Assembly: GCA_903903635.1 (NCBI GenBank)
Contig: CAIUZK010000247.1
Location: 1-53,902, forward strand
Direction: 5' to 3'
DNA: 53,902 nt
Source: an uncultured Bacteroidota bacterium
GTDB lineage: Bacteria > Bacteroidota > Bacteroidia > Chitinophagales > Chitinophagaceae
The translations under genes were made by a program, and so were the position numbers. The notes below the pieces were generated by a model. That model had not been told where the DNA came from, ran no database searches, and was given only the letters and a program-made list of their open reading frames with translations. Positions 621 through 45,307 of the stretch are shown here, piece by piece; within the stretch, counting starts at the first letter, position 1; each line of letters starts with the position of its first letter.

Positions 621-2606
621 TTATTTCAGTATTATTTCGGTTTCCTCATTTGGTTTGATGTGGAACTGGAGTACCTGTTCTGCAGCATAACCTACTGCAG
701 GTCCTTTTTGATAATGTACCTGATATTCACCGGGCTGTATTTGTAAATGCTGACTCTTAGGATCTTTCAGTTCAAGCGTATAAAAACCAAGGTACTTATT
801 GCCATATTGCCTGAACAGGGTTACACTCTTTATTTTTCCATCCCCAGTGAATTTTGCAAAACCCGGTTGCTCTATTGTTATAACTGTCTCACCATCAAAA
901 TCCAGATCTACATTGCGCACATCCTGAGGAAAGGTATTAATTTCAATATGATAATTGCCGGGCTCATACAATATTGCTTCAATACATTTCTGATCCTGCA
1001 CTCTGCCATGCTCCTTGGTACGTTCAGTTACTACAGCCATGAATTCCTTAACAGGCCGCTTGGGGGCATTTTCGTAAGCAAAACTGAGACTGGTACTTTT
1101 TACCGTAACCGTTACCTTGTTGTTCTTATTGGGCAACACCTGTATTCCGGTAAGCAAATAATCCGGTCTTACCGTTAAGGTCAGATCATAAACTCCGGCT
1201 GGAATTCCTGTCTGAGGATCAGGATTGCCAGTTGGATCTACAGTGCGGAAAAACTTTCTTACCGGCTTTTTTGTGGCAGGATCAAGCAGCACAACCTGGG
1301 GGCTGGTGGTATAATATTTACCCTTGCCATTGGTAAAATAAACCGACACCGTAGTTTCTTTGTCATCAGTAGTTTCTACTTTAAATTCATGCTTAGGCGC
1401 TTTCTCAGGCGCCGGTTTATCGGCCACTATCTCCACCTTCACAGGTGGCAATGCCGGTATCGGCCTGATTCTGTAAGTGTGGTCTTCAATTACAAATATT
1501 ACATTAAGACGGTTAGGCCTTGATAACTTTAATTTAGCTATTACATCAGCCTTACGGGGAGCCACAGGTGTGTCAATAATTAATTTCGGAAGCTCAAAAC
1601 CGTTGGTAACCAGGCTTTTTTTACCAGCAACAGGAGTACCTGTTATTATCAATCTGGGTTTTGAAGTGGGTAATGCTGCATATTTCACAACCGTCCGTGG
1701 TACAGGAGTATCAACTACAACCTTTGGCAACTGCATGGATGCCTTTGTTGTTTTTGCGGGTGCAGACAGTATTGTAATGGATTTCATTGACACTACCGAA
1801 AAGGGTAATGATGCAATATTATCAATAACTACTGCCCATTTTTTGGGTTCGTCCGGTTTAATGACAGGTGTATTTACTTTCAGAATACTTGGTGCATTTG
1901 CCGAAATATTCTGCATCTTCTTATATTCTTCTGAATTGATCTTTATTACAGGCCTGAAAGCCTCTACGATTACACTTACAGCCTTGGGTATGTCTTTCTC
2001 CCTGGTAACCTGCAAAAAATCACCCATACAAGCATAGGTGGTTTTCAATGAAGGGTCATTCTCCAGACTAACAATATAAGGCTTGAAGTAAACCTTGTAT
2101 TTCATCAGTTTCTTCATTACATCACAAATATCCCCGCCGCAGCTTTCGCCTCCATCGGTAATCAGAATGATACTGTAGGCATTATGATTCTCATCTACAA
2201 TATCCTTTTCTGCTGCTTCTTTTAATGCAAAACCAATGGGTGTTACACCCAACGGATGGATATCTTCAAGCCTGGCCTGCATTTGTCCCCGGTTGTCCCT
2301 ACTAAATGGCACCTCATTTCTGGTGTCATAACAATCATTTTCAGGTACAGTATGCTGATGACCGAATACGCGCAATGAAAATTCAACCTGCTTATTGACT
2401 GCATAAACACTATCCATCAGTTTGAGAATCAATTCGCGGGCAGCTTTGTACTTCTCTTTGCCACTGGCCCATGGCAAGGTCATACTCGATGATTCATCAA
2501 GCAAAATAAGCACACGCGACTGTATCAAGCCCCCTTCACTTTGGGCCTGAGTACCGTATGCGGCAAAAACACAAAAAATAAAAAGTATAAACCGCCTTAA
2601 TTTCAT
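621..2606 (-). CDS. secreted von Willebrand factor A domain protein
   Basis: Exported 661-residue protein with a signal peptide (MKLRRFILFIFCVFAAYGTQ, then AQ). The vWA domain follows at once (about 30-220), with an intact MIDAS motif D37-E-S39-S-S41, the threonine in GVTPIG and the aspartate in ILITDGGES, so metal-dependent binding is plausible. The middle (about 240-400) is low-complexity, with repeated V/IDTPV and Lys/Pro/Val-rich segments. The C-terminal third looks like beta-sandwich repeats, as in Bacteroidota surface proteins. The ATG at 2606 is preferred over the GTG four codons upstream because it begins the signal peptide. A role in surface binding or substrate sensing is only inferred. 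Confidence 0.8.
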   Translation of the reverse strand: MKLRRFILFIFCVFAAYGTQAQSEGGLIQSRVLILLDESSSMTLPWASGKEKYKAARELILKLMDSVYAVNKQVEFSLRVFGHQHTVPENDCYDTRNEVPFSRDNRGQMQARLEDIHPLGVTPIGFALKEAAEKDIVDENHNAYSIILITDGGESCGGDICDVMKKLMKYKVYFKPYIVSLENDPSLKTTYACMGDFLQVTREKDIPKAVSVIVEAFRPVIKINSEEYKKMQNISANAPSILKVNTPVIKPDEPKKWAVVIDNIASLPFSVVSMKSITILSAPAKTTKASMQLPKVVVDTPVPRTVVKYAALPTSKPRLIITGTPVAGKKSLVTNGFELPKLIIDTPVAPRKADVIAKLKLSRPNRLNVIFVIEDHTYRIRPIPALPPVKVEIVADKPAPEKAPKHEFKVETTDDKETTVSVYFTNGKGKYYTTSPQVVLLDPATKKPVRKFFRTVDPTGNPDPQTGIPAGVYDLTLTVRPDYLLTGIQVLPNKNNKVTVTVKSTSLSFAYENAPKRPVKEFMAVVTERTKEHGRVQDQKCIEAILYEPGNYHIEINTFPQDVRNVDLDFDGETVITIEQPGFAKFTGDGKIKSVTLFRQYGNKYLGFYTLELKDPKSQHLQIQPGEYQVHYQKGPAVGYAAEQVLQFHIKPNEETEIILK

Positions 2607-17332: not shown

Positions 17333-20300
17333 ATGGCCACCAGCGAAGATCTTTTCCTTGAACGATATAATAAACTTAACGACCGGCAAAGAGAAGCCGT
17401 AGACCATATTTACGGTCCGGTAATGGTTATTGCAGGTCCCGGTACCGGTAAAACCGAGGTTTTATCCATGCGCATAGCCAACCTTATGCGCAGTGAGGCA
17501 CAGGTTCAGCCACACGAGATACTTTGCCTTACCTATACCGATGAGGCTACCAGCTCCATGCGCCGCCGCCTGGTTCAGATCATTGGCCCTGCGGCACACA
17601 AAGTGAATATCTATACCTTTCATGCCTTCTGTAACAATGTAATCCAGAACAACAGTGAATCTTTCAGCCTGCGTTCCCTGCAGCCCATCACCGACCTGGA
17701 ACGAACCGAAATACTCTACAAACTGCTGGAAGAACTGCCCTCAGGCCACCCATTGCGCAAGCTGAGTGGCAATATCTATTTCGATGCAGGCAAGATCAGC
17801 CGCCTGTTTGATGTTATGAAACGGGAATACCTGACCTCGCAATTTATTTCAGATTCCATAGATGTTTACCTGAAAGAATTGCCCGAAAAAGATGGCTATA
17901 CCTACCAGCGCAATGGCAAAGGATACCAGAAGGGGGACCTGAAACAAAACCTGATCAATGAGGAAACCAGGAAAATGGAATCTACACGTGCCGCCGCATT
18001 GCTTTTCGATAAGTATGAAGCAATGATGAAAGAGGCGGGGCGCTACGACTTCAACGACATGATCATCTGGGTACTTGATGCCTTTAAACAAAACCCTGCC
18101 CTGCTGCAGAATTACCAGGAGCGCTACCAGTTTATCCTGGTCGATGAGTTTCAGGATACCAACGGCTCGCAGAATGAACTAATCAATTACCTCGCTTCCT
18201 ACTGGGACGACCCTAACATTTTTGTGGTGGGCGACGACGACCAGGGGGTTTACGAATTCCAGGGGGCCCGTATCCGGAACATTGTTGACTTCTTCGACCG
18301 GTATAAAGAATCGATCACGATTGTGGTATTGCCGCATAACTACCGGTCGTCGCAGAGCATACTGGATAAGGCTATGGCCTCCATACGCAACAACCAGCAA
18401 CGCCTCATCAACCAGCTTCATGAGTTGCAGCTCGATAAGCAGATCATCGCCTCGGCAGAGAGGTTCAGGGAGGGCAATAACAACATTACGCCTGTAGTAA
18501 AGGTGTACAACAATGTAACCCAGGAAGAGTGCGACATTGTAATGCAGGTGCAGGAACTGCAGCGCACCGGAGTGGCGCTGAACCAGGTAGCTATATTGTA
18601 TGCCCAGCACAAGCAGGCCGATAATATCATGGCTATCATGGAGCGGCAGGGGATTCCATACAATGCCAAGAAACCGGTGAATATTCTTAAAGAACCCCTG
18701 GTGGAGCAGATACTTAATGTGCTGCAATACCTGGAAGATGAAAAGAAAAAATCGTTTGAAGGAGAGGTAGCCCTCTTCGAACTGATGCATGCGCCTTACT
18801 TTGGCATTTCGCCTACCGATATTGCACAGCTTGCCCTTTACCTGCAACATATACGCAAAGAAAAAGGCCCTACCCGCTGGCGCTTAATGCTATGCGATGT
18901 GCTGCTGCTGGAGTCGCTGCAACTAAGATCGGCCAAGGCAATGACCAGGTTGGGACGCTGCCTCGACAATTGGGAACAGCAACAATTATCGCTACCGCTG
19001 CCCCTGCTGCTTGAGAAAATTGTGCACGAAGGAGGCATTGTTGCCCACATGGTGCAAAGCACCGACCATGTCTGGAATATACAGGTTCTTTACACCTTCT
19101 TTGAGTTTGTGAAAGATGCCTATTCACGCAACCCCAAGATAAAGCCGGCCGGGCTGCTGGAGATGGTGAACCGCATGAACGATGAAAACATTTCGTTGCC
19201 GCTGCAGCGCATTATTCAGAATGAGAACGGGGTACATTTTTATACAGCGCATAGCTCCAAGGGCAATGAGTTTGAATATGTGTTTCTGATAGGCTGCACC
19301 AAAAACTTCTGGGAAGATAAAAAGGGAGGCAATAACGAATACCGCCTGCCCGATACCATAACTGCCACAGTAGAAGACGCGCAGAAAACCAATAAAACAG
19401 AGGTAGCCCGCAGGTTGTTTTATGTGGCGCTTACCCGTGCCAAAAAACACCTGCAAATATCATTTGCCAATAACGACAGTGCAGGCAAAAACATTGAAAA
19501 ATCGGTATTTGCAGATGAGATATGCAAACAGGAGGATATGCTGGTGCAAACAGTGCCATCGGCAGAATTGGTGCGCTTTATGGAGCTGGCCATACAGCCT
19601 GTGCCGGAGGTAAGAATTAAGATGGCCAATGCGCAATGGATTGAACGCGAACTGCAGTTGTTTACCTTAAGCACCAGTTCGTTATCCAAATTCCTGCATT
19701 GCCCGCTGGCCTTTTATTACGAGAATATACTGCGGGTTCCTTTCCAGAAAAATGATGCACTGGCATTTGGTAGTGCGGTGCATACCTCGCTGGAGCGCAT
19801 GTTTATAGATATGAAGCAGAATATGGGGGTATTCCCGAACAAAGAACAAGTGTTGAATGTGTTCCGGTCGGCGCTGTTCTCTGAGGCTTCATGCTTTACG
19901 CCAGTGCAGTTTGACCGGCGCATGGAGCAGGGCAATACGCTTCTTTCCGATTATTACGACCATTACATCAACACCTTCCATACCGATGTGGAGATAGAGC
20001 TGAAAGTGCCCCGCTACCTGCTAGATGGCGTGCCTGTAACCGGCAAAATAGATAAGCTGGAAATGAATGGCGATACCTGCAAGGTGATAGACTACAAAAC
20101 CGGCGACCCTGATAAATCGGCTAATGCCAATGTGGCGCCGCCAAATGATAAAGAACCGCTGGGTGGCGACTACTGGCGCCAGATGGTGTTTTACAAACTA
20201 CTGCTGGAAAACCAGGAAGACAAGCCCCGCAAGGTAACCCTGGGTATGTTTGACTACATACAGCCCAACAAAAACGGGGAGTACAAGCAAATTACAGTGC

Positions 20301-20482
20301 CTGTATTTGCCCAGGACGAAGCCATAGTGCGCCAGCAAATGAAGGAGGTGTACAACCGCATCATGAACCACGAATTTGACCGGGGCTGCGGCGATGAAAA
20401 TTGCCACTGGTGCAACTTTGCCAAACGCTATGAATTAATAAGGCCAGCAGCGGGTGAGACTGTGGAGATTGATGATGTGTAG
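17333..20482 (+). CDS. UvrD/AddA-like helicase fused to Fe-S PD-(D/E)XK nuclease
   Basis: A 1049-residue superfamily 1A helicase-nuclease. Helicase motifs are Q-motif LNDRQREAV, Walker A AGPGTGKTE (34-42), II LVDEFQDTN (about 269-277), III VGDDDQGVYEFQGA, IV NYRSSQSI, V TAHSSKGNEFEYVFL and VI RRLFYVALTRAKKHL (about 693-707). The C-terminal domain is a RecB-family nuclease: GKIDKLEMNGDTCKVIDYKTG (about 904-924) holds the catalytic D and DYK. Its cysteines in FLHCPLAFYYE (about 789) and CGDENCHWC (about 1019-1027) could hold a [4Fe-4S] cluster, as in AddB. A role in double-strand break processing or defence is inferred. It is monocistronic. Confidence 0.9.
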   Translation: MATSEDLFLERYNKLNDRQREAVDHIYGPVMVIAGPGTGKTEVLSMRIANLMRSEAQVQPHEILCLTYTDEATSSMRRRLVQIIGPAAHKVNIYTFHAFCNNVIQNNSESFSLRSLQPITDLERTEILYKLLEELPSGHPLRKLSGNIYFDAGKISRLFDVMKREYLTSQFISDSIDVYLKELPEKDGYTYQRNGKGYQKGDLKQNLINEETRKMESTRAAALLFDKYEAMMKEAGRYDFNDMIIWVLDAFKQNPALLQNYQERYQFILVDEFQDTNGSQNELINYLASYWDDPNIFVVGDDDQGVYEFQGARIRNIVDFFDRYKESITIVVLPHNYRSSQSILDKAMASIRNNQQRLINQLHELQLDKQIIASAERFREGNNNITPVVKVYNNVTQEECDIVMQVQELQRTGVALNQVAILYAQHKQADNIMAIMERQGIPYNAKKPVNILKEPLVEQILNVLQYLEDEKKKSFEGEVALFELMHAPYFGISPTDIAQLALYLQHIRKEKGPTRWRLMLCDVLLLESLQLRSAKAMTRLGRCLDNWEQQQLSLPLPLLLEKIVHEGGIVAHMVQSTDHVWNIQVLYTFFEFVKDAYSRNPKIKPAGLLEMVNRMNDENISLPLQRIIQNENGVHFYTAHSSKGNEFEYVFLIGCTKNFWEDKKGGNNEYRLPDTITATVEDAQKTNKTEVARRLFYVALTRAKKHLQISFANNDSAGKNIEKSVFADEICKQEDMLVQTVPSAELVRFMELAIQPVPEVRIKMANAQWIERELQLFTLSTSSLSKFLHCPLAFYYENILRVPFQKNDALAFGSAVHTSLERMFIDMKQNMGVFPNKEQVLNVFRSALFSEASCFTPVQFDRRMEQGNTLLSDYYDHYINTFHTDVEIELKVPRYLLDGVPVTGKIDKLEMNGDTCKVIDYKTGDPDKSANANVAPPNDKEPLGGDYWRQMVFYKLLLENQEDKPRKVTLGMFDYIQPNKNGEYKQITVPVFAQDEAIVRQQMKEVYNRIMNHEFDRGCGDENCHWCNFAKRYELIRPAAGETVEIDDV

Positions 20483-20535
20483 GGGGCTGGTTATTTTATC
20501 CAGTATTGCTTGCGTACTACAGTTCAACTTACAAT

Positions 20536-20612
20536 TTCCGTTTTCTTCCGGCAGCCTTCCGAATGCTTCCGATCACTTCCGCTTTCTTCCGGTTATTTCC
20601 GGTACCGGAAAT
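20536..20612. repeat. helically phased TTCCG array with terminal palindrome
   Basis: TTCCG starts at 20536, 20546, 20557, 20567, 20577, 20587 and 20597, giving spacings of 10, 11, 10, 10, 10 and 10. The intervening bases differ each time, so it is not a simple tandem duplication. The last copy is half of a perfect palindrome atttccggt/accggaaat (20595-20612). The spacing matches one DNA turn and not a codon multiple, so it looks like a protein-binding array. Confidence 0.8.
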
Positions 20613-20786
20613 TATTATTGTTCCTATATTTGCTTTAAGTTATTGTTTTATAGTGTTTTATGATTTTAAAATAGTCCTATTTTTCGATTTTGCCAAAAAA
20701 ATGGCGGTGGGTATTTTCTTACAATAAACACAAGGGATACAAAGGCAACTACAATGGGCGCAAGCTTCCTTATAAGGATGAATTCC

Positions 20787-20880
20787 GGATTTTTGCTGCT
20801 AAAGGTCGGAAGTACGGGTGATCTGGTAAAATTGAGTTTTTATGACAGTGTGTTTTTCGTGCTATGATAGACCGTATGCG
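20787..20880 (-). repeat. inverted copy of serine-recombinase 3' flank
   Basis: These 94 bases align without net gaps to the reverse complement of 34981-35074, the DNA spanning the recombinase stop codon and downstream. Identical blocks include aaattgagttt and ctatgatagaccgtat. A further shared block, taaacacaaggga, lies at 20725-20737 and inverted at 35104-35116. Similarity stops where recombinase coding sequence would begin. Confidence 0.75.
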
Positions 20881-20900
20881 GTCTGTCATAGATTTTTTTT
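20862..20900 (+). terminator. hairpin with T-tract (terminator-like)
   Basis: ctatgatagaccg (20862-20874) pairs with 20879-20891 with one mismatch across the loop tatg, followed by A and eight T. It has the form of an intrinsic terminator on the plus strand but no gene directly precedes it. It may instead be a recombination-site palindrome. Confidence 0.6.
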
Positions 20901-21283
20901 GGGGTCTAATTGATTGGTTATCTGCCGGGTATATGTTATGGATACCTCTTCGTTTTTGTGAGTTGTCAGATTGCGGGTTTTTGTGATGGGTTTTAGGTGA
21001 TATTAAGGCTGTTTATTATGATTTGCATTAACTGCAGCGAGAGTGCAGGCAGAAGATTGGTGTCCATTCTGAATATTTTTTTACATTAGCAACCGATGTC
21101 CAACTTTGGGCTAATACTTCCATATTCCCAATTTATTATGTATGTTTGTAATAGCAGACCGCCCCTAGACTATTTTAGCAATGATTCAATCTGAATAATT
21201 GGATATGGTGTGCTATATGCCCTGGTTTCTAATTGGATTATATTGGTTTAACTCCTGCCAGGCAGGGATCTTTTAGTGAAAAT

Positions 21284-22660
21284 ATGACTGACCGACAAAG
21301 TGTTTTTCTTGCAAAAAGTAAAGTGAAAGCTAATGACCTGGAGCATAAGCGAAAGGTTGCGTTCAATATCCAGAAATATAATGATAGTGTAGTAAAGGGT
21401 AAGCAGCAGTTTGCCAACCTTGACGTTGCCCGCCAAAGGGCAAAGAATGTTAAATGGAAGACCATTGAAAATCTGGATAAATACCTGGAGCAGTTTGAGA
21501 AAAAATTTACGGCTAACGGTGGCAAAGTAATCTGGGCTGAAAATGCCGATGATGCCCTGCATGCCATCTTGCAGATTTGCAGGGAAAAGAATACCACTCA
21601 GGTAGTTAAGGCTAAGTCGATGGTGACTGAAGAAATTCACCTAAATGATTTTCTTTCCCGGAATGGCATTGAATCGGTGGAAACTGATCTTGGAGAATAT
21701 ATTCAGCAACTGGATGGAGAACCGCCCTATCACATAGTAACACCCGCAATGCATAAAAGCAAAGAGGATGTTGCAAAAGTTTTTCATGATAAACTCGGTA
21801 CAGAGCCAAATTTATCTCCTCCTGAAATAACCAAAATTGCCCGGAAAAATCTGAGAGAGAAATACATTACGGCACAGGTAGGAATAACCGGTGGCAACTT
21901 TCTGCTGGCCGATATTGGTGGCGTTTGTGTAACCGAAAATGAAGGTAATGCTCGCCTCTGTACTACTTTCCCTGCAACCCAGATTTCAATTGTGGGAATT
22001 GAGAAATTGCTGCCTTCAGTAAACGATCTTAACCTTTTCTGGCCCTTATTGGCTACGTATGGCACGGGTCAGCAGCTTACTGTTTATAATTCAATATTTA
22101 CTGGTCCCCGGGGTGCATATGAAACAGATGGCCCTGAGGAAATGTATGTGATACTACTGGATAACGGCCGCACCAACCTGCTTATGAAAGAGGTAAGGGA
22201 GAGTATGTACTGTATTCGTTGCGGATCATGTCTCAACGCATGCCCGGTTTACAAGAATATCGGTGGTCATGCCTATGGCGCTACTTACAGCGGACCCATA
22301 GGATCTGTTATTACGCCTCACCTCAGCGGACTCGAAGAATACAAACACCTCAGTTATGCATCCAGCCTCTGCGGCAATTGCACAGAAGTGTGCCCCCTTA
22401 AGATAAACATACATGGCATGCTGCTGGAGAACAGGGCCCTATTTGCTGAAAAGCGTTTGAACAAAAACTCTGAGAATTTTTCCTGGAGTTTATGGCAACG
22501 TGCCATGCTGAGCAGGAAGCTGCTTAATGCGGCGGGTAGTGGTTTAAAGGATAAAGTAGTGAATAAAATTTTTAAAGAAAGCTGGTGCAGAGATCGTGGC
22601 CCTATACATTTTGCTGAAAAATCATTCAATAAGATGTGGAAGGACCGCAAACAAAATTAA
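21284..22660 (+). CDS. lutB: LutB-like iron-sulfur protein (LUD domain)
   Basis: A 458-residue protein of the LutB/YkgF family, part of the LutABC complex that oxidises L-lactate to pyruvate. The LUD domain spans about 55-290. A ferredoxin-like region follows with CIRCGSCLNACPVYK (about 309-323) and CGNCTEVCPLKI (about 362-373), ligands for two [4Fe-4S] clusters. The ATG at 21284 is chosen over a TTG 17 codons upstream. lutA and lutC are not adjacent; the next gene is unrelated (8-bp gap). The partner subunits must lie elsewhere if the complex is functional. Confidence 0.9.
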   Translation: MTDRQSVFLAKSKVKANDLEHKRKVAFNIQKYNDSVVKGKQQFANLDVARQRAKNVKWKTIENLDKYLEQFEKKFTANGGKVIWAENADDALHAILQICREKNTTQVVKAKSMVTEEIHLNDFLSRNGIESVETDLGEYIQQLDGEPPYHIVTPAMHKSKEDVAKVFHDKLGTEPNLSPPEITKIARKNLREKYITAQVGITGGNFLLADIGGVCVTENEGNARLCTTFPATQISIVGIEKLLPSVNDLNLFWPLLATYGTGQQLTVYNSIFTGPRGAYETDGPEEMYVILLDNGRTNLLMKEVRESMYCIRCGSCLNACPVYKNIGGHAYGATYSGPIGSVITPHLSGLEEYKHLSYASSLCGNCTEVCPLKINIHGMLLENRALFAEKRLNKNSENFSWSLWQRAMLSRKLLNAAGSGLKDKVVNKIFKESWCRDRGPIHFAEKSFNKMWKDRKQN

Positions 22661-31672: not shown

Positions 31673-31729
31673 GAGGTAATGTGGGAGTAATGCGGTAATG
31701 TGGGGGTAATGCGGTAATGTGGGGTACAT
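31673..31729. repeat. 3 x 19-bp tandem repeat upstream of gldC
   Basis: Units at 31673-31691, 31692-31710 and 31711-31729. The consensus is gcggtaatgtgggggtaat, with differences only at unit edges. It lies 64-120 bp upstream of the gldC start, so it may sit in its promoter region, where slippage could alter expression. Confidence 0.9.
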
Positions 31730-34308: not shown

Positions 34309-34999
34309 CCTTGCCGGGTATGTTATTTGTGCAGACTGTAATAAAAAAATGTATGTCTTTCATGCTGGAAAACAGCCAACCTACCGGTGTGCAAATTGTA
34401 ACAACAGAATCGTTACAGCAGATATTGAGGAAATATATCATGATCAACTGAAAACATTCTTGCTTTCCGGAGTTACAATTTCAGAATATCTCGAAAAACT
34501 TGATGTGCAATTGCAGGAAAAAGAAACTCTGCTTTCAACAATTTTCAAAGAACGCGATTCACTTTTAAAGAAAATCGACATTTTCAATGATATGAGAATA
34601 AACAATGAACTGACAAAGGAATTGTTCCAAGAGAAACATAAACCTTTGGAAGTTCGGTTAATGTAGTTGAATAACCAATTACCTGAACTTCAGGCAGAAA
34701 TTGACTTTCTAAAAATCCAGTATCGTTCAAGTGATGTTGTCTTAAGTGATGCCAATGATTTGTATGCACATTGGGGCACACTGGATTTTGAAGCCAAGAG
34801 AACAATAGTAGAAACAATAAAAGACAAGATCTCTGTAGGGAAAGAAGATATCCATATTAAGCTATCCTACATTCCATCTAAGCATACAAATGCAAATACA
34901 CGCGGCGCTGACGCGCCGCTACAAAACGAACAAAAGCCCCAATCTGTATCTAATAAAAACCAAGTAAAAAGGCAAAGTAACGTATACGGTCTATCATAG
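34290..34999 (+). pseudogene. serine recombinase C-terminal fragment with in-frame amber stop
   Basis: In one continuous frame, PKHLLAGYVICADCNKKMY and RCANCNNRIV form the recombinase zinc ribbon (two CxxC pairs). A coiled coil follows (LQEKETLLSTIFKERD) and then the conserved LDFEAKRTIVETIKDKISVGKEDI end. The catalytic N-terminal resolvase domain and its serine are missing. A TAG at 34664-34666 breaks the coiled coil (RLM, stop, LNNQLPEL) without a frame change. The fragment is thus dead twice over. Its natural stop codon lies within a ctatcatag motif repeated nearby. It is Bacteroidota-type in sequence. Confidence 0.85.
34902..34919. repeat. GC-rich REP-like hairpin inside recombinase tail
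   Basis: gcggcgc (34902-34908), loop tgac, gcgccgc (34913-34919): a perfect 7-bp GC stem in an AT-rich gene. It encodes part of the TRGADAPLQ stretch, which looks inserted relative to related recombinases. Confidence 0.7.
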
Positions 35000-35116
35000 A
35001 TCAAAAACAGTACTATCATAGAAACTCAATTTCACCAATCCATATTCTCATACTTATTTTAGCCGCAAAAAACCCTTAACCCATCTAAGTGAATTCCCTT
35101 GATTCCCTTGTGTTTA
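34981..35116 (+). repeat. recombinase 3' flank matching the inverted copy at 20.7-20.9 kb
   Basis: 34981-35074 is the partner of 20787-20880 in opposite orientation, and 35104-35116 the partner of 20725-20737. ctatcatag occurs twice in direct orientation at 34991-34999 and 35013-35021, the first containing the recombinase stop codon. This could be an attachment or resolution site remnant. Confidence 0.75.
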
Positions 35117-44263: not shown

Positions 44264-45307
44264 ATGGAAGATACAAAAACATTGCACCAGCAGCTCCTTG
44301 AGGCTGGCGTACACTTCGGCCACCTGAAGAAAAAATGGAATCCAAAGATGTTGCCTTACATCTTCGCAGAAAAAAACGGCATTCATATCATTGACCTCAA
44401 TAAAACCATTGAAGGTCTTGATGAAGCGGCTGCAGCATTGAAATCTATTGCCAAAAGCGGTAAGAAGATCATGTTCGTAGCTACTAAAAAACAAGCTAAA
44501 GAAATAGTTGCTGAAGCAGCTACAAGAGCCAACATGCCTTTCGTTACTGAACGTTGGTTGGGTGGTATGCTTACCAATTTCAGCACCATTCGCAAGAGTG
44601 TAAAGAAAATGTTGAGTATTGAAAAAATGCTCCAGGACGGAACAATGGACAGCGTTACTAAAAAAGAACGCCTGACTTTGACCCGCAGCAAAGAAAAAAT
44701 GGAAAAAGTATTGGGTGGTATTTCCCAGATGGGCCGTACTCCTGCAGCTCTTTTCATGGTTGATATTCATCATGAGCATATTGCACTTGCCGAAGCAAAA
44801 CGCCTTGGCATCGCAACTTTTGCTATGGTTGATACCAACAGCGATCCTACTAAAGTAGATTTCGCAATACCTGCAAACGATGACGCTACAAAATCAATCG
44901 CTATCATTGTAACTTATCTTACTGCTGCTATCCTCGAAGGTTTACAGGAGCGCGCTCAGGTAAAAGAAAATGACGATGATAACGTTAATGAAGATAATAC
45001 AGATAACAGAGGCCGTGGTTTAGAGATCACAGAAGAAGATGGTGAAGGTGGTCGTCGCGGCGGTCGCGGACGTGGCAGAGGTGCTGCGGCTGGTGCCGGT
45101 GCTCCGGGTCGTGGACCAGGTGGTGGCACAGGCCGTCCAGGCGCTGGCGCTGGTGGACGTACAGGCGGTGGCCCCGGTGGTGGCAATCGTGGTGGTGCAG
45201 GCGGAAGCCGTCCGGGTGGTCCGGGTGGCGCTGGAAGCCGTCCAGGTGGTGGTGCAGGAAGTCGTCCGGGTGGCGGCGGAAGCAGACCAAGCCCTGCAAA
45301 ACACTAA
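44264..45307 (+). CDS. rpsB: ribosomal protein S2 with long Gly/Arg/Pro-rich tail
   Basis: A 347-residue uS2. Residues 1-230 are a normal S2 core ([54 protein letters not shown]). An acidic linker (about 235-261) leads to an 86-residue tail (262-347) built almost only of Gly, Arg, Pro and Ala, with GGRGRGRG and four SRPGG-like units, resembling eukaryotic RGG boxes. E. coli S2 is 241 residues, so this is about 100 residues longer. The tail is in frame, ends cleanly at a stop, and is followed by a hairpin, so it is not an assembly artefact by appearance. Its RNA-binding role is inferred. Confidence 0.95.

Follow-up and report, generated by a model that had tools for sequence, protein, structure and literature searches.

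What is an array of seven TTCCG motifs, set one helical turn apart and running into a perfect palindrome, doing between two genes of the same orientation? This is the question raised by the locus described here, which lies within a stretch of 53,902 nucleotides that was analysed as a whole (the window). The motifs begin at positions 20536, 20546, 20557, 20567, 20577, 20587 and 20597, giving steps of 10, 11, 10, 10, 10 and 10 bp. All seven units share the five bases, while the spacers vary (in order TTTTC, GCAGCC, AATGC, ATCAC, CTTTC and GTTAT), and the palindrome contains the seventh TTCCG together with CGGAA, its inverted copy. Coordinates of this and related features are collected in Table 1.

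Table 1. Features of the window and of two full copies of the element in other genomes (positions of the full copies are those of their own loci)
Feature	Position	Strand	Basis or detail
UvrD-type helicase/PD-(D/E)XK nuclease gene	17333-20482		neighbour of the array
TTCCG array, n=7	20536..20601	+	sequence reading, shuffles, whole-genome pattern scan
Perfect 18-bp palindrome ATTTCCGGTACCGGAAAT	20595..20612	no strand	identical to its own reverse complement
Dispersed repeat (module)	20791..21005	+	similarity matches in own genome
Module core	20841..20900	+	TATGACAG, CTATGATAG, CTGTCATAG, then T run
LUD-domain/4Fe-4S protein gene	ORF 21233-22660		neighbour of the array
Partial second module copy	34981..35037	-	E 1.3e-8, 84% identity
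Full copy, G020 (L470)	array from 1341, gene 2220-1501, module to 2457		
Full copy, G027 (L471)	array from 341, gene 1197-517, module 1251-1436		

The phase of the array is not reproduced by chance. When the whole window was dinucleotide-shuffled 200 times, the longest chain of TTCCG at 10 or 11 bp was two (182 shuffles reached one and 18 reached two), and two was again the maximum across 2000 shuffles of 20483-21284, attained by 10 of them. When the window's genome (5,267,266 bases in 275 contigs) was scanned for at least three exact TTCCG at 10-11 bp, the array was the sole place found, with five overlapping matches; the same whole-genome scan gave no match on the opposite strand and none for a reversed control pattern. 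The original prediction, which had described seven phased TTCCG ending in an 18-bp palindrome, is therefore upheld, positions included. TTGATTATCAA may resemble an IHF site, and the tails of arrays may resemble promoters. Elsewhere in the window, tandem repeats of 19 and 24 bp are present at 31675-31726 and 45134-45283.

One explanation is that a host regulator, or a nucleoid protein, uses the array as an operator or upstream activating site for the helicase or LUD gene, with no relation to mobile elements. Its place between two co-oriented genes and its phase, which exceeds that of shuffled sequence, are in keeping with such a role. Against it, the stretch that follows the helicase gene was read in 29 further genus genomes and no array was seen there (25 inspected over 900 bp and 4 over 89-617 bp, with the helicase genes of 4 further genomes left out), and similar arrays occur at many further places, where they tend to accompany a repeat module. 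We consider a host operator unlikely. As the regions downstream of the helicase in 29 relatives are without an array, the window copy appears to be lineage-specific rather than a conserved operator of its neighbours. Comparison with sister strains gave a mixed result at this locus. The suggestion that the array is a cooperative binding site or the end of a mobile element stands in part, for the step remains constant while spacers, and even the motif, change.

The search for three phased TTCCG covered 149 genomes (the window's own, 34 more of the genus, and 114 others of its family and order) and was positive in 18, comprising 12 of the 35 genus genomes (G000, G002, G008, G011, G013, G016, G017, G018, G023, G025, G031 and G032) and 6 of the 114 others; the reversed control pattern matched 7 of the 149. 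Match counts were highest in G002 (52, many from one tandem array), G031 (24) and G008 (14). Spacers tend to be common among copies within one genome and to differ between genomes, and many arrays in relatives, like that of the window, are followed by inverted copies. When steps of 6-20 bp were permitted in eight genomes picked for carrying arrays, 160 of 228 steps in 114 partly overlapping matches were 10 or 11 bp, and both steps were 10-11 bp in 69 of the 114; the reversed control gave 42 matches in these eight genomes, their spacing not being shown. The genomes surveyed are mostly drafts, in which contigs often end at these repeats.

Phased TTCCG is not confined to the genus. A draw from the phylum contained matches in 55 of 395 genomes, and a broader collection of genome contigs contained at least 119 stretches with four-copy arrays in scattered taxa. 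As the matches in the phylum draw are mostly single or tandem, the dispersed form is attributed to this genus, although G067, of the same family and with three matches, may share it. Flavipsychrobacter stenotrophus has two arrays with a different spacer and no module by the motif test described below. Seventeen stretches from the broader scan were inspected, some of which have varied spacers while others are simple tandem repeats. Those with varied spacers include L313, L286 and L280 (Bacteroidetes, Verrucomicrobia and Prevotellaceae records), which may be independent instances of a similar site.

Downstream of the array, the window contains a dispersed repeat, here called the module, parts of which match at least 30 other places in the genome (40 of the 53 candidates were scored; E-values up to 0.004, identities of 72-86%). 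Its core has three near-palindromic nine-mers (in the window at 20841-20848, 20862-20870 and 20883-20891), which are spaced by about 21 bp and have a run of T's after them. By a motif test (TATGAYAG or CTRTCATA at 25-475 bp from the array), the module lies downstream of 25 of 77 arrays in relatives and upstream of 2, against a background of 7 of 142 distant stretches (Fisher 8e-7 and 9e-8 for the downstream enrichment); the test detected no module at 52 of the 77. Because the module follows arrays in relatives and seldom precedes them, the order seen in the window is the order of the family. Of 25 module copies in the window's own genome, several of which end at contig breaks, 7 have a gene for a helix-turn-helix (HTH) protein, or its remnant, starting beside the module on the opposite strand, and 7 have an array some 230-430 bp away, one of these having both; this count missed the diverged array of the full copy L150, which was seen by alignment and by eye. 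Pairwise matches between modules or elements stop at differing places, and there are several kinds of right flank.

At 17 places the same genome also carries an inverted repeat like CGGAAGTTTCCGGAAATCGGAAG. CTTC motifs, many in the form CTTC[TC]GG, stand before every one of these copies. Since the copies were located by the inverted repeat, the spacing of CTTC was not built into the search. Of 106 steps, 26 are 10 bp, 26 are 11 bp, 29 are 12 bp, 18 are 21 bp and 7 are other values, so that 99 of 106 are 10, 11, 12 or 21 bp; these steps are not independent, as the 17 copies derive from one another. The module was seen downstream of 5 copies in the stretch read, and pieces of the HTH gene in 3, several copies ending at contig breaks. 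The window array differs from this main family of its own genome in having a TTCCG-only motif and no AT-rich tail, so that what assigns it to the family is its phase, its inverted end, the module and the order of the parts.

An old minisatellite, that is, a tandem 10-mer whose spacers have decayed, would also give motifs at a constant step, and true tandem versions do occur (G002 C7 from 52104 on; G234; G232). The window units, however, share their five bases in seven of seven cases despite differing spacers, and most of the 17 CTTC copies keep an irregular layout (for example 11,10,12,10,12,21,11). Slippage is on these grounds a very improbable source of the array.

Arrays of other motifs were also encountered. 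In 400 kb of G002 and 386 kb of the window's genome, neither chosen for arrays, a search for any motif in five or more copies found none at steps of 10-12 bp. The same search in fetched, element-rich loci gave 23 arrays at steps of 10-12 bp, with 16 to 22 for steps from 6 up to 10 bp and 2 to 9 for 13-19 bp; because other steps also give arrays, this count is not evidence by itself. In individual cases (L463, L126/L471, L117 and L039), inspection by eye was followed by a count of the steps. L117 has GGGGCA at 10,11,11,11 bp from 1895, and L039, from another genus genome as is L117, has TTGCTA at 10,21,21 bp from 2392. L463 has, from 1190, ten TGCAAAA at 10-11 bp followed by an inverted copy and a ATTGATTCATTATCAG tail; this run lies about 180 bp past a CTTC array, alike in layout and different in motif.

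Another possibility is that the functional form is a structured RNA, whether as a nested hairpin or as a short transcript that stops at the module, with the phase of the motifs incidental. The fold of positions 20530-20620 is somewhat more stable than that of shuffled sequence (z -1.87, matched by 12 of 200). For the module core the fold is strong (z -5.32, matched by 0 of 200 shuffles), and with its T run and the stem at 20862-20891 the core is terminator-like. Folding of the longer stretch 20483-20720, however, does not exceed that of shuffles (z 0.69), and RNAalifold on 18 G031 copies gave a covariation term of 0.21, with two-sided changes in 2 of 13 pairs. Furthermore, the window contains no Rfam match, and the step stays where the motifs differ. 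With neither covariation support nor an Rfam match, the array as an RNA structure was rejected, and we regard this explanation as very unlikely.

Arrays and modules are joined by a gene in the complete form of the element. Three full elements, in three species, have the order array, HTH gene, module: one in the window's own genome on contig C15 (L150, also L469), with a 244-aa HTH protein, and those of G020 and G027 (Table 1). Their arrays differ in motif. L469 has CTTC at steps of 11,10,12,23,21,11; L471 of G027 has CTTC, mostly CTTCAA, at 11,10,10,11,11,10; and L470 of G020 has TTGCGT at 21,22,32,20. A drift of the motif across full copies while the helical step stays is what would be expected of a binding array. 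The original prediction had remarked that no matching protein gene adjoins the array, which is true of the window copy but not of the family, as the full copies carry a gene for a DNA-binding protein.

Several copies lack parts of the gene. L192 and L189 align with L150 on both sides and are missing the interior of the gene; L190, which likewise keeps both sides, retains the gene start. Six solo arrays from G008 (L084, L087), G023 (L015, L096) and G025 (L093, L094) match the 3' end of the G025 HTH gene (L477) across its stop codon and into coding sequence, with E-values of 9e-13 to 2e-7 that apply to the small set of 27 loci compared. An HTH gene was within the fetched stretch at 4 of 69 array loci from relatives. 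Past the window palindrome, no convincing HTH remnant was found with six references (3 of 300 shuffles were equal for one, and 62 to 236 for the rest). As the fuller copies of the family have the gene, the window copy probably had one formerly and lost it. Exact outer ends and target duplications were not found in the copies compared.

The HTH family is multi-copy and was found in 34 of 35 genus genomes and in none of 54 others. Using tblastn, the first 149 aa of one member matched 36 phage records (best E-value 6e-11, 95% of the query), and the subfamily-A protein (defined below) of L469 matched 39 (best E-value 4e-10, about 60% of the query). The annotated phage proteins among the matches displayed are described as DNA binding protein or terminase small subunit, and in the one record opened the related gene adjoins that of the large subunit. 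It is the first half of the HTH family member that is related to the phage protein. PHROG 4151 was matched at 3e-14 by one member and at 2.6e-21 by L469, and Pfam Terminase_5 exceeded its cut-off in all four proteins scanned, one at 1.3e-7 (31.8 bits); for L469 the score was 21.0 bits against a cut-off of 20.3, ranking under HTH_23 and sigma region 4. By sequence, the HTH protein of the element is a relative of phage small terminases.

The HTH alone also resembles DeoR (PDB 7bhy, 3e-5; best terminase-like chain 0.017), as well as sigma region 4 and the transposases of IS630 and IS3. An AlphaFold monomer model was of middling confidence (mean pLDDT 69), with a tail that, in this low-confidence prediction, looks as if disordered. 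The model gave no match to a solved structure at E 0.001, and the one viral structure match below E 0.001 was to an annotated DDE transposase family protein (E-value 6e-5). When the fetched loci were compared with a large terminase query, only L196 and L108 matched, both of which had been fetched for the module and not for an HTH gene. In L108, a relative of the phage terminase large subunit is encoded at 2133-2624, about 0.6 kb from a module fragment.

The motif and the protein subfamily appear to be paired. Genes with at least 300 readable bases were assigned to subfamily A if they scored over 90 to the L150 protein, and motifs were counted on either strand within the 600 bp following the gene or the final 300 nt of long frames (L178, L175 and L487 were dropped for short flank). 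Of the 21 subfamily-A genes, 12 had three or more TTCYGG, as did 1 of the 40 others (Fisher 2e-6), whereas three or more TTGCRCA were present at 1 of 21 and 14 of 40, respectively (Fisher 0.011). Without L090 and L092, which entered via array-chosen loci only, the TTCYGG counts were 10 of 19 and 1 of 40 (1e-5). By genome, subfamily A (E-value 1e-30 or better) was found in 11 of the 12 array carriers (all but G023) and 4 of the 23 others (3e-5). The cut-offs (score 90, E-value 1e-30 and three motifs) were chosen after the data had been seen, and the tests ignore descent; the genes and genomes are not independent, some genes being close paralogues, and the co-occurrence may reflect common descent rather than binding.

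The motifs can lie within the gene itself. TTCCGG occurs inside the reading frame in G007 (L482), G014 (L481) and G031 (L474), and the arrays of L088, L090 and L092 (G008) sit within the open frames of their own HTH genes. Four genomes have subfamily A but no phased TTCCG array: in G007 and G014 the in-gene TTCCGG sites show at most two in phase where read, while in G027 and G020 different motifs stand directly after the gene and are followed by a similar tail (CAACTTATTTATTTTCAG and CAACTCATTCATTTTCAG). Repeated sites near or in a small terminase gene, an arrangement like that of pac and cosB, are thus found at 12 of the 21 subfamily-A genes. In the 3' flanks of the HTH genes of L153, L154, L160, L161 and L151, a palindrome resembling TTGATAATCAAT is bordered on either side by TTGCRCA-like motifs, a layout reminiscent of repeat-bend-repeat packaging sites.

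Dispersed palindromic repeats can also be REP/BIME elements moved by a RAYT (Y1 transposase). Genes for Y1_Tnp are present in 33 of 35 genus genomes, and the arrays often finish in inverted copies capable of forming a hairpin. Twenty-one Y1_Tnp loci (L428-L447 and L184) were inspected by eye: most of the genes are flanked by other inverted repeats, which vary between genomes, and three phased TTCCG were found at none of the 21 (350 bp per side, with little flank for L435 and L447). The repeat near Y1_Tnp in L433 has two TTCCG 9 bp apart, and on contig C141 of G011 a TTCCG array lies about 0.4 kb upstream of a Y1_Tnp gene. As the flanks of Y1_Tnp mostly hold different repeats, a RAYT/REP origin was rejected, and it is the least probable of the explanations considered here.

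The REP/RAYT, RNA-structure and slippage readings each fit worse than a gene-less copy of an element. Based on these results, we conclude that the window array is probably the cis-acting part of an internally deleted copy of a dispersed element that has lost its gene, and that the array is a putative site contacted by the HTH protein once per turn. The element would belong to the window's genus and perhaps also to its nearest neighbours. In full, it would consist of a phased array with inverted copies near its end, an HTH gene of small-terminase type on the opposite strand, and the module at the 5' side of that gene. Several HTH protomers would sit side by side on a single face of the DNA, one motif per helical turn, the DNA would be wrapped or bent round the HTH oligomer, and the inverted copies would close the complex. 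That subfamily A binds the array is inferred from their co-occurrence, and the protein may be oligomeric with DNA wrapped round it. Against this reading, the HTH also resembles those of DeoR and transposases, the AlphaFold model is middling, and wrapping by small terminases is disputed in a review (PMC9611059). Also weighing against it are the many arrays with no module by the motif test or no HTH gene in the fetched stretch, the lack of a convincing HTH remnant and of the AT-rich tail in the window copy, and the two stretches not chosen for arrays, which held none. More tentatively, and with considerable doubt, the HTH proteins might form an orphan set of small-terminase-like proteins, chromosomal and multi-copy, with motifs private to each subfamily placed once per turn on dispersed arrays that resemble packaging sites, and with protein and motif diversifying together; such arrays may mark chromosomal DNA for packaging by phages or particles, or compete with phage packaging.

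Were this so, natural arrays with one motif per turn, and with motif changes that track protein subfamilies, would suit tests of wrapping combined with specificity, and the family would be a type of dispersed element with a packaging-type protein as its basis. No earlier description of it was found in the literature searched, a search that most subscription papers fall outside. In small terminase rings of the SF6/SPP1 type, adjacent HTHs are separated by roughly one turn of DNA, and a model with wrapped DNA has been proposed; pac contains AT runs interrupted by GC pairs, and SPP1 pac extends into the gene (PMC4737164). How small terminases select their DNA is unsettled: in the review PMC9611059, nucleosome-like wrapping by them is doubted, and sequence specificity is said to be explained by neither wrapping nor threading.

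The elements of this genus resemble several known systems without coinciding with any of them. Like MITE-type deleted derivatives, gene-less copies retain both sides with the gene partly or wholly gone; unlike MITEs, a transposase, exact ends and target duplications were not found in the genus copies. As with REP/BIME and RAYT, they are dispersed, palindromic and mosaic, but they have phased direct-repeat arrays, and the Y1_Tnp genes carry other repeats. There is a likeness to SPP1/SF6 pac and lambda cosB, where repeated sites lie near an HTH small terminase gene, and motifs of the genus can similarly sit inside the gene. In contrast to phage packaging sites, the arrays of the genus are chromosomal, occur in many copies and repeat one motif turn after turn, and the large terminase query matched only 2 fetched loci. 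The SF6 small terminase was found to bind DNA mostly without sequence preference (PMC4737164), whereas the genus arrays repeat one motif. Finally, the pseudo-pac sites of P22 are chromosomal sequences recognised by the small terminase (PMC11226127); the genus sites are likewise chromosomal, but whereas pseudo-pac sites are host sequences that resemble the phage site, those of the genus form families of repeats.
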